Source of the DNA: a virus
Strand: one strand, 5' to 3'
Virus record (IMG/VR): IMGVR_UViG_3300010334_000277
Coordinates: 1-23,941 of that record
Length of the DNA stretch: 23,941 nt
The translations under genes and the position numbers were made by a program. A model generated the notes under the pieces. That model ran no database searches. It worked only from the letters and a program-made list of their open reading frames with translations, and was not told the DNA's origin. Positions 7,414 through 20,386 of the stretch are shown here, in pieces. Position 1 is the first letter of the stretch; every line of letters begins with the position of its first letter.

Positions 7414-7793
7414 TCTGCGGCCTTCCAAACAATAAGAAACTTATCATTGCTGGATTCACCTTTGCTAAAGAACATGGTTATCATATTGCCATCTGTCCAA
7501 TCACTGATCTTGATTGGGCCTTCATCCCAACGGTCATTTGAATCAATCAGGCGACGAGCACCACGATATGCGTCAAAGTCATTTAACAAATCATTAAATG
7601 TGCCTTTAAACTTGATTTGTTTGTTAGTGTAAAAACAATGCGATTCATAAATCAGTTCTACAATGGGCAGTTGGTTGAGTTGGAAATCTACCAAAGTTTT
7701 ATAGAACTTGCTGTTGCGATTGATTTTGTATGCTGTCTTTTTAGACACACAATCCGTAAACGGACGGTTTGTAGGGTAAGCAAGTGTAGTCAT
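7410..7793 (-). CDS. First gene of the downstream early transcript, unknown (127 aa)
   Basis: The ATG at 7793 follows AAGGAG and a sigma70 promoter about 30 bases upstream, so this is the first gene of the four-gene transcript ending at the terminator at 6682-6709. The product is mixed alpha/beta, rich in Lys, Asn and aromatic residues (RNSKFYKTLVDFQLNQLPIV, DFDAYRGARRLIDSNDRWDEG), with no membrane segment. Base composition is more AT-rich than in the structural genes. No family is recognised. Host-type promoter and position suggest expression soon after infection. Confidence 0.7.
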   Translation of the reverse strand: MTTLAYPTNRPFTDCVSKKTAYKINRNSKFYKTLVDFQLNQLPIVELIYESHCFYTNKQIKFKGTFNDLLNDFDAYRGARRLIDSNDRWDEGPIKISDWTDGNMITMFFSKGESSNDKFLIVWKAAE

Positions 7794-7856
7794 TTGGTGC
7801 TCCTTAAAGCGTTGTTGATAAGTGTGTAGTATAGCACTTCACGCGATACTGGTCAA
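7791..7856 (-). repeat. Direct repeat copy A: duplicated early promoter and leader
   Basis: The 66 bases match 8200-8265 in the same orientation at 57 of 66 positions, with a 32-base identical core covering the -10 box and leader. It includes promoter, 5' leader, Shine-Dalgarno and start codon of the gene at 7793. Confidence 0.9.
7828..7856 (-). promoter_or_regulatory. Early sigma70 promoter (TTGACC-17-TATACT)
   Basis: Read on the minus strand, TTGACC (7856-7851) and TATACT (7833-7828) are separated by exactly 17 bases, each one base or so from the bacterial consensus. Transcription should start near 7821 and read genes 7793 to 6711. The -35 box directly abuts the stop codon of the 43-aa gene upstream. 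Confidence 0.85.
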
Positions 7857-7992: not shown

Positions 7993-8202
7993 TTACTCCT
8001 GGGCTGTGAGTTCTGCTGCTTCACGCAGGGTCATTTGTGGAAATGACTCTGTAAGATAGTTGCGATACTGATTCAGTGTGGTGTCCAACCACATTTTGTA
8101 GTGCAGTTCGCTGTAGTGCTTGCGAACAGCGTGAATGTCAGCAAAGTTGCCTGCTGTGGCTTGGGACTGGGCAAAAGCCACGAATGTTTGTGCTTGGGTC
8201 AT
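7993..8202 (-). CDS. Early small protein, unknown (69 aa)
   Basis: The start is the ATG at 8202, with AAGGAG upstream and a sigma70 promoter about 35 bases before it; the longer reading from 8286 would run through that promoter. The product is soluble and helical with many Gln, Ala and aromatic residues (FVAFAQSQATAGNFADIHAV, HYKMWLDTTLNQYRNYL). No family is recognised. It is followed at once by a 43-aa membrane peptide gene, so the two are probably made together early in infection. Confidence 0.7.
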   Translation of the reverse strand: MTQAQTFVAFAQSQATAGNFADIHAVRKHYSELHYKMWLDTTLNQYRNYLTESFPQMTLREAAELTAQE

Positions 8203-8265
8203 TTCATGCTCCTTGAAGCGTTGTTGATAAGTGTGTAGTATAGCACTCTTGCCGATACCGGTCAA
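8200..8265 (-). repeat. Direct repeat copy B: duplicated early promoter and leader
   Basis: This is the partner of 7791-7856, of equal length and same orientation, with 9 mismatches that fall mainly in the promoter spacer and beside the start codon. Confidence 0.9.
8237..8265 (-). promoter_or_regulatory. Early sigma70 promoter (TTGACC-17-TATACT)
   Basis: On the minus strand TTGACC (8265-8260) and TATACT (8242-8237) are 17 bases apart. It drives the 69-aa and 43-aa genes and has the same -35 and -10 boxes as the promoter at 7828-7856. Confidence 0.85.
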
Positions 8266-8360
8266 GCACAAAAATGCCAACTTCACTTGCGATTATATAG
8301 GTATATTTGGGTGCTTTTTACCAAAATGAACACAAAATATCCTGGTTCTGAACACATTGA

Positions 8361-8367
8361 CTAAATA
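8361..8367 (+). promoter_or_regulatory. Late-promoter-like motif CTAAATA
   Basis: CTAAATA lies 18 bases before the ATG at 8386, with GAAGGA between. The 8266-8360 stretch upstream is AT-rich and shows no other clear signal. Confidence 0.6.
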
Positions 8368-8385
8368 ATAGTGAAGGAATATTGT

Positions 8386-9129
8386 ATGGCAACAAATCAA
8401 CTAAATGCGGCTGAATCACAAATACCGCGAGAAGTATATAAAGACTTAAAGATTAAACTATTGATCTCGCAAGAAGGAGGCGAAGATCAAGACAGGGAGA
8501 AGGTCTCTGCGAGACCTGCCTTTGGCCCCGAGGGCAAGCCCTCGAATCCACTGGCCTTTGACTTCGTCACCTCTCCCGAGGAAGTCCCCCAAGAGAGAGA
8601 GGTTAGTTGTATCAGCCCGCGAGAACTATGTTCTCGCTATTCAGGCATCAGTGTGCAGCATGCTCGAACTGACCGAGGCATCAAGGTATACATCACACTA
8701 CAACAATCGGATTGGGTGCCAACCGGTGCTGTGCAGTTGGCCACAGCAGAACTCAAACGCAGTGATCGATTGAGAGAAGTGCGAGCCCGAGAGGATGACA
8801 GCGAAGAGTTTGCGGCTTATCTGGATGATGCCAAACAACAACTACGACCACAAAAGGCACAAGTGGCCATGGGCAGATTGCATCAACGCAACAAACGCAG
8901 CAGTTGGATCTATGACACCGTGATGGTGGCTTTCTTCGAAAATGACAAAATGAACAAAGTGCTGTTGTATCTTGAAGGAGAAGAAGTTATTATAGATATG
9001 GATCGAGAAATGAGCATGAACCAACAACGATACTATCACTGCCAAGGCTTGCTGGGCACTATACACGGCAACAAGAAAGTGCCAAGACTCAGCGATCTTC
9101 CTTTGAGCCGGTTTGGAAAACAATCATGA
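8386..9129 (+). CDS. Hypothetical protein with hairpin-dense 5' region (247 aa)
   Basis: The ATG at 8386 is preferred over the in-frame GTG at 8371 because GAAGGA precedes it. Residues 26-85 are charged and Pro-rich and are encoded by a chain of inverted repeats (see 8461-8637). The rest looks folded: ISVQHARTDRGIKVYITLQQ (about 86-105), a charged helical region, then strands in WIYDTVMVAFFENDKMNKVL and LYLEGEEVIIDMDREMSMNQ. I recognise no family. It shares an ATGA overlap with a small CxxC protein gene downstream and is preceded by a late-type motif, so it is probably a late gene. Confidence 0.75.
   Translation: MATNQLNAAESQIPREVYKDLKIKLLISQEGGEDQDREKVSARPAFGPEGKPSNPLAFDFVTSPEEVPQEREVSCISPRELCSRYSGISVQHARTDRGIKVYITLQQSDWVPTGAVQLATAELKRSDRLREVRAREDDSEEFAAYLDDAKQQLRPQKAQVAMGRLHQRNKRSSWIYDTVMVAFFENDKMNKVLLYLEGEEVIIDMDREMSMNQQRYYHCQGLLGTIHGNKKVPRLSDLPLSRFGKQS
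8461..8637 (+). other. Chain of five inverted repeats inside a coding sequence
   Basis: Successive hairpins: TTGATCTCGC/GCGAAGATCAA (8461-8490, one bulged A); AGGTCTC-tgc-GAGACCT (8501-8517); CGAGGG-caag-CCCTCG (8529-8544); GACTT...AAGTC enclosing CCTC-tccc-GAGG (8560-8586); GCGAGAAC-tat-GTTCTCGC (8619-8637). A further ACCTCTC/GAGAGGT pairing (8569-8575 with 8597-8603) competes with the fourth. The words GCGAG and CTCGC recur. The frame stays open throughout. Confidence 0.8.
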
Positions 9130-20361: not shown

Positions 20362-20386
20362 AAAAAGGCTCTTCGGAGCCTTTTTT
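20362..20386 (+). terminator. Strong terminator after the major capsid gene
   Basis: GGCTC-TTCG-GAGCC with five A before and six T after, 18 bases past the capsid stop. The A-run could make it work in both directions. The moron promoter begins two bases after the T-run. Confidence 0.95.

Follow-up and report, generated by a model that had tools for sequence, protein, structure and literature searches.

A Conserved Hairpin Array within a Coding Sequence of SU10-Like Phages, Possibly an Intragenic Replication Origin

A series of inverted repeats was characterized in the first 250 bases of an open reading frame carried by a viral stretch of 23,941 nucleotides, the whole of which is hereafter called the window, and its comparison among related phages gave good support to the view that this array is selected as nucleic acid. 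The array is best explained as a cis-acting nucleic-acid element, most likely a replication origin acting at the DNA level within the gene, a reading that we favor tentatively and place somewhat short of an even chance. Among the functions envisaged in a preliminary description of this DNA, made from the letters alone, a replication signal fitted best, and two others, control of translation and a signal for packaging, are further candidates. The gene is a clear case in which the form of the nucleic acid seems to take precedence over the encoded peptide, the structure being kept and the frame not.

The Host Gene and Its Homologues

The window record (G000) carried genes for terminase and for a portal and a capsid protein of SU10 type, as assigned with Pfam and PHROGs, and the host phage of the array is SU10-like. 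The gene hosting the array (8386–9129, plus strand) encodes a 247-aa product with an N-terminal part predicted to be disordered and a folded domain starting at about residue 86, a boundary placed by alignment to the model of the homologue L016. In this model, pLDDT was below 50 across residues 11–87, which agrees with the earlier remark that residues 26–85 were polar and looked unstructured. No Pfam or PHROGs family matched the gene, and scans with both collections of this gene plus 11 family members returned weak and scattered matches only. A search against the sequences of solved structures gave a single chance-like match (E 0.11), and the fold comparison gave no PDB match with E <0.001, the best being GID4 (VIA-align Z 6.4). 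Against BFVD, one match fell below 0.001 and corresponded to A0A6J5N5A6, an uncharacterised phage protein. None of these searches pointed to a function, and the folded domain was unlike any known initiator, its PDB matches being weak.

Homologues were gathered from viral contigs with searches at the protein and DNA levels, and their records are fragments. The array was present in 14 distinct sequences, which comprised the window copy (W) and 13 further homologues (L084, L062, L016, L065, L030, L091, L094, L095, L093, L100, L137, L167 and L171). The identical or near-identical L001, L085, L088 and L172 were excluded from distinct-sequence counts, L001 representing approximately the same phage as the window (99.7% at the DNA level). 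L089, which is truncated at the contig end, was without the array, and L008 was a remote relative (E 2e-4). No relatives of the gene were found in the scans of genome contigs and of the phage collection.

Hairpins of the Array

In the window, the series started with a long-loop stem, hp0 (8427–8470), in which GCGAGA (8427–8432) and TCTCGC (8465–8470) enclosed an A-rich tract (8433–8464). The left arm of hp0 was unvarying in the seven rows of an automatic alignment designated A3, and CTCGC of the right arm was retained in 9 of the 14 sequences, being changed in L084, L016, L065, L167 and L171. A second hairpin (8461–8490) overlapped hp0 and was formed by the pairing of TTGATCTCGC with GCG-A-AGATCAA, with 10 pairs, one bulge and a 9-base loop; since both structures share one TCTCGC arm, they are mutually exclusive. 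In the consensus fold, one pair of this second hairpin was changed on both sides (CG in four, UA in two, and GC in one). Hairpin A (8501–8517; AGGTCTC-tgc-GAGACCT) was a perfect 7-bp stem, paired in all seven members of clade A with an outermost A-T or T-A pair and a loop of 3 or 4 bases, and none was seen outside this clade. It was followed by hairpin B (8529–8544; CGAGGGC-aa-GCCCTCG), perfect over 6–7 bp, and by the short stem constituting the core of hairpin C (8559–8569; TGAC-ttc-GTCA). The inner three pairs of hairpin C were retained in 10 of 10 tabulated rows (10 of the 14 sequences, L062, L137, L167 and L171 being left out), and its outer pairs were often broken. An imperfect stem appeared in the fold at about 8569–8603, and the 19-bp dyad or hairpin D (8619–8637; GCGAGAAC-tat-GTTCTCGC), a perfect 8-bp stem directly preceding the folded domain, was intact in place in 10 of the 14 sequences. 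All of the five stems previously described within 8461–8637 were present in the fold, and the additional GCGAG copies mentioned nearby were located at 8427 and 8781, the copy at 8427 being part of the series.

Dyads of the GCGAG/CTCGC type, hereafter D-type dyads, occurred in 1 to 4 copies per gene, with 2–4 copies in 8 of the 14 sequences. The window harbored one full D-type dyad plus half-sites, and hairpins A and B did not belong to this type. With spacers of 1–12 bases allowed, 23 of the 24 dyads had one of 8 or 9 bases and the remaining dyad one of 11. In L084, the 5′ dyad was the reverse complement of the 3′ dyad, and the dyads were thus found in both orientations. The left arms mostly changed together within one gene, to ACGAG in L167 and to CGCAA in L171, the arms of these two having been set by hand to the lineage form; L171 presented both arms in one dyad only, and the left arm of the 3′ dyad of L167 was altered. 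The A-rich tract came after the left arm GCGAGA, and over 36 bases its AT content was 0.72–0.89 in the 14 distinct sequences; ranked by A count, the tract of the window fell within the highest 1.6% of 36-base windows. In L093, four GCGAGAAGTAGTACTCGC dyads (1607–1750) preceded the A-rich tract, with a period of 42 bases.

Conservation of the Stems and of the Reading Frame

The decisive support for selection of the array was comparative, and did not come from the energy of a single window. The compensatory changes proposed as a check in the preliminary description were present in homologous stems: in hairpins A and B, 78 of 78 cells were paired in an alignment of seven rows (six distinct), and none of 500 shuffles reached the observed covariation score (0.533 versus 0.153 in shuffled alignments), in a control that ignores the relatedness of rows. 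Cells with double changes numbered 14 against a shuffled mean of 4.2, and the score fell to 0.03–0.11 when the alignment was slid, the observed value being about five times that of the best slid control. Six of the 13 pairs were changed on both sides, which was matched by 5 of the 500 shuffles, and the number of pair types was not exceptional (8 versus 6.2; 88 of 500 shuffles). In hairpin B, four pairs in the hand register or five in the MAFFT register were changed on both sides; compensation was thus seen in both, though the registers differ.

In the longer automatic alignment A3, long-range pairs between the repeated arms prevailed in the consensus fold, and the covariation term was unfavorable (+1), in our opinion because hairpins B and C were misaligned there. 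For this assessment of stem conservation, the local alignment of A and B and a hand table were used, not A3. The hand table comprised 245 stem cells, of which 228 were Watson-Crick pairs, 5 were A-C, 12 were other mismatches and none was G-T, and these figures are biased towards paired cells, since the arms were chosen by eye. Its rows for hairpins A and B covered clade A only, and a sixth stem, B2, was represented by three rows. In L016 and L100, hairpin C had an outer T-G pair situated beyond the tabulated arms.

The array lies inside an open coding sequence. In-frame stops were absent in 12 of 12 sequences (L062 being incomplete at its 5′ end), L167 and L171 were open too, and since the frame stays open, the array segment is almost surely translated. 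The codon phase in which the hairpins are read varied among homologues, being 0, 1 or 2 for hairpin B, 0 or 1 for hairpin C, and 0 or 2 for hairpin D. Moreover, the loop of hairpin A had three bases in W, L084 and L062 and four in L016, L065, L030 and L091, so that the peptide encoded downstream differed (SARPA or STRPA versus SxET[C/S]LLAQRQAS). Related phages kept the palindromes though the protein frame differed, which indicates that the nucleic acid itself is apparently selected. The opposite pattern, in which the protein would be kept and the stems lost, was not observed overall, the stems being maintained by compensation and in other codon phases.

The array had also been proposed for comparison with the rest of the gene at synonymous positions, and fourfold sites were indeed more kept N-terminally (71 of 96) than in the remainder (79 of 180; Fisher p 2e-6), as counted in six disjoint, hand-picked pairs. 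L091 and L172 were left out of this count and of the identity comparisons. Nucleotide identity was higher in the N-terminal than in the C-terminal part in 78 of 78 pairs when only aligned columns were considered and in 54 of 78 when gap columns were counted; gaps inflate the aligned-only identity, for which codon-order-shuffled controls reached 0.615 versus the 0.725 observed. Amino-acid identity, in turn, was lower N-terminally than C-terminally in 65 of 78 pairs with gaps and in 48 of 78 without them.

Folding Energy and Hairpin Density

The segment 8461–8637 presented a folding energy of −67.4 kcal/mol, ranking 12th of 793 among 177-base windows. When synonymous codons were permuted inside the region, its z was −2.8, with 7 of 1000 permutations equally low, and when codons were drawn by phage usage it was −4.0. 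The background mean z of 240-base coding windows was −0.94 (sd 1.16, n = 282), as obtained from four stretches of related phages in which the window and family genes were included, and consequently the folding energy of the window gives weak support when taken alone, being by itself only moderately unusual. In this 282-window scan, the lowest value belonged to the gene copy of G011, and the window's own gene was outside the 25 lowest. Perfect hairpins reached 3 per 260 bases in the window, and of 1001 coding windows taken from outside the family, 9 attained this density; it was at least 3 in 7 of 12 family sequences, 2 in L030, L091 and L093, and 1 in L094 and L095. With regard to the earlier assertion that ordinary genes do not hold such a series, hairpin density was higher than usual, and the energy alone was not extraordinary.

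Across the family, the N-terminal coding part folded below codon-permuted controls in all 12 sequences tested, that of the window among them (z −2.5 to −5.0), and 24 partly overlapping control windows from the remainder of the family genes gave z values from +1.0 to −2.3. L167 reached z −3.2, while L171 (z −1.0) and the remote relative L008 (z −0.85) were exceptions to the excess of structure. The comparison with codon-shuffled controls suggested beforehand thus gave lower folding in all of the 12 sequences and no marked excess in these two. Taken with covariation and the change of codon phases, the permuted-codon folds supported the initial suspicion that the RNA or DNA form may be what is selected.

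A Possible Intragenic Origin and Its Alternatives

The nearest known design is that of the lambda replication origin. The portions of the literature consulted describe ori-lambda as containing near-perfect inverted repeats of ~19 bp and an AT-rich tract within the O gene, and the copy number of these repeats as differing between relatives, adding residues (PMC5043065, PMC7466680). On this description, the array is similar to ori-lambda in its dyads of ~19 bp, the adjoining AT-rich tract, the location inside a coding sequence and the variable copy number. It differs in having the extra dissimilar hairpins A–C and a linker frame that varies between lineages, and in being known from sequence alone; unlike lambda O, the gene described here was without an annotated family in the searches made and lies beside packaging genes. 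The array may be said to resemble a gene-embedded origin in its anatomy, short of established membership in that class, since the window itself holds a single complete dyad.

In such an origin, the 18–19 bp dyads (GCGAG...CTCGC, in variable number) would be the binding sites of a dimeric protein, which may be the product of the gene itself, the strands would open at the A-rich tract beside the dyads, and hairpins A, B and C could serve on the exposed single strands. The encoded disordered linker would mostly be a tolerated by-product of the selected nucleic acid. Protein binding, strand opening, origin activity and the identity of the initiator are what we infer. It is conceivable, albeit doubtful, that SU10-like, non-lambdoid environmental phages evolved a gene-embedded origin of their own, in which palindromic dyads, an A-rich tract for opening and hairpins for single strands run through the disordered linker of a new family of initiators while the frame drifts over fixed DNA. 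If the array is an origin, the lambda arrangement would have arisen in another phage group, and a handle would be gained on the start of replication in small phages without recognised replication genes.

The main rival to the origin is a structure acting at the mRNA level, in which the string of hairpins near the 5′ end, with two exclusive pairings of TCTCGC, would control translation, stability or autoregulation of the gene. We regard this possibility as serious but rather unlikely. The array starts ~40 bases past the start codon, the stems 8427–8470 and 8461–8490 overlap, and the loop length of hairpin A varies while its stem is constant; this overlap and the variable loops are features that RNA would allow, and the low energy of the sense strand in 12 of 12 sequences agrees with RNA as well. 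However, the antisense strand folded about equally to the sense strand, with a lower z in 6 of 12 sequences. G-U accounted for 3–12% of pairs in the predicted sense folds, which was below their own shuffles in 9 of 12, and was absent from the 245 hand-tabulated cells, though some hairpins end in wobble pairs. The near-fixed spacing of D-type dyads and their occurrence in both orientations suit double-stranded DNA better and, together with the few wobble pairs, make action in DNA likelier than in RNA. Moreover, Rfam 15 gave no match at the gathering score in the whole window, and the one match in 8300–8700 was below threshold and lay for the most part upstream of the gene. If the array acts in RNA, it would be a regulatory structure that is both translated and conserved in phages with double-stranded DNA, and one with no Rfam match in the scans made.

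Other explanations were considered improbable to different degrees. The linker might simply be hairpin-prone and weakly constrained, template switching during replication building and repairing palindromes in such a way that paired changes are mutational and involve no selection. The mostly perfect Watson-Crick stems, the strand symmetry, the differing hairpins of L137, the tandem copies of L093 and L171, the inverted copy of L084 and the frame changes agree with this view, which is nevertheless unlikely, since conservation at fourfold sites exceeded that of the remaining gene instead of falling below it, dyad spacing was kept, and the same stems persisted at 43–53% protein identity. A signal for packaging or concatemer processing would suit the position of the array upstream of the gene for the terminase large subunit and of a putative small-subunit gene, and known pac sites can lie within genes. 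This function seems quite unlikely, because the record ends were not clustered at one point relative to the gene; 2 of 14 records ended within it, and strong hairpins could cause such assembly breaks. It is very improbable that the array is a selfish palindromic element inserted in frame, of the Rickettsia palindromic element type, even though it is palindromic, in frame and located in a segment predicted to be disordered, in likeness to the elements of Rickettsia and Wolbachia, which the consulted part of one report describes as translated in frame in unstructured protein parts (PMC2996958). The array differs from them in being restricted to one gene, with a position conserved with covariation, and in not being dispersed in the 184 loci. 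When the family genes were masked, 1 of 982 blastn rows fell outside them, and it was weak (E 0.025). Within the 184 loci searched, many of which are incomplete records, the array was confined to one gene, which makes unlikely the inserted series of dispersed elements initially listed among the possibilities.

The D-type hairpin pattern was found in 27 stretches of viral contigs, 8 with the family gene and 19 without it, and 10 of these 19 shared one GCGAGAACTACTTCTCGCGCTTGGAGCCGCGATGAG context, thus representing one sequence seen many times. In genome contigs, 6 stretches were found against ~7 expected from base composition, by a rough uniform-composition estimate. On these counts, the D-type hairpin was rejected as a mobile dispersed repeat. 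Regarding other palindromic families, the array is similar to PARCELs (palindromic amphipathic repeat coding elements) in comprising tandem palindromes in coding DNA whose meaning is unclear (PMC2996958); PARCELs encode a repeated 25-residue protein domain, whereas the peptide of the array is poorly kept. The palindromes of 20–40 bp described for REP repeats in the part of the source consulted (PMC3733652) are also comparable, but REPs are high-copy and extragenic, while the array is intragenic and local. No report of the array was found in those portions of the literature that were searched.

Genomic Slot and Replication Genes

The family gene was flanked on one side by a conserved gene of the minus strand and on the other by a small gene, taken to be TerS-like on account of an N-terminal motif, that precedes the gene for the terminase large subunit. 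It was absent from L050 (record G015), L046 and L043. The corresponding slot of G015, a sister phage (L050:1822–4141), contained genes for a PriCT_2 primase and a VapE-like helicase, in an apparent module exchange with the family gene, and L046 presented ORFs of lengths equal to those of the G015 slot genes, with similar N-terminal sequences. Searches for VapE, PolA and DnaB in 14 records had the VapE of G015 as the sole match, and none matched in the 11 searched records with the family gene. The 32.3-kb record G005 begins within the portal gene and ends just past terminase, and is therefore expected to be close to complete. A scan of 34 of the 35 ORFs called in it (at least 70 aa) matched seven Pfam families, none for replication. 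With PHROGs, 42 families were matched in this record, 25 of them being among the matches listed. Since G014 had neither the gene nor VapE, PolA or DnaB, the absence of those families was not specific to gene carriers. GC skew displayed no clear switch and was uninformative for an origin.

Clusters of hairpins were observed in the same slot of G014 (L176:3150–3275) and of L015 (from 4498), both without the gene. The two records shared a tandem pair of perfect hairpins, carried by opposite strands; on one strand the loop reads GCAA. The hairpin stretch of G014 folded unremarkably (z −1.46), and these clusters were not counted as evidence of a related array without the gene. The first 221 bases of G014 recurred at the record end (L176 start, L177 end) with 97% identity, so that this record of 36 kb, though classed linear, probably represents a full circular map. 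In G005, a ParB-like domain fused to a DNA methyltransferase was encoded near the family gene (L147:5295–6686).

Two further features were noticed in the window. A stretch of ~68 bases was present in two copies (7789–7856 and 8198–8265) with 88% identity, each of which is situated at the beginning of a leftward ORF and resembles a shared promoter plus ribosome-binding site. The hairpin at 20362–20385, whose 10-bp stem is perfect and bordered by A and T runs, follows directly on the capsid gene and is likely a terminator.
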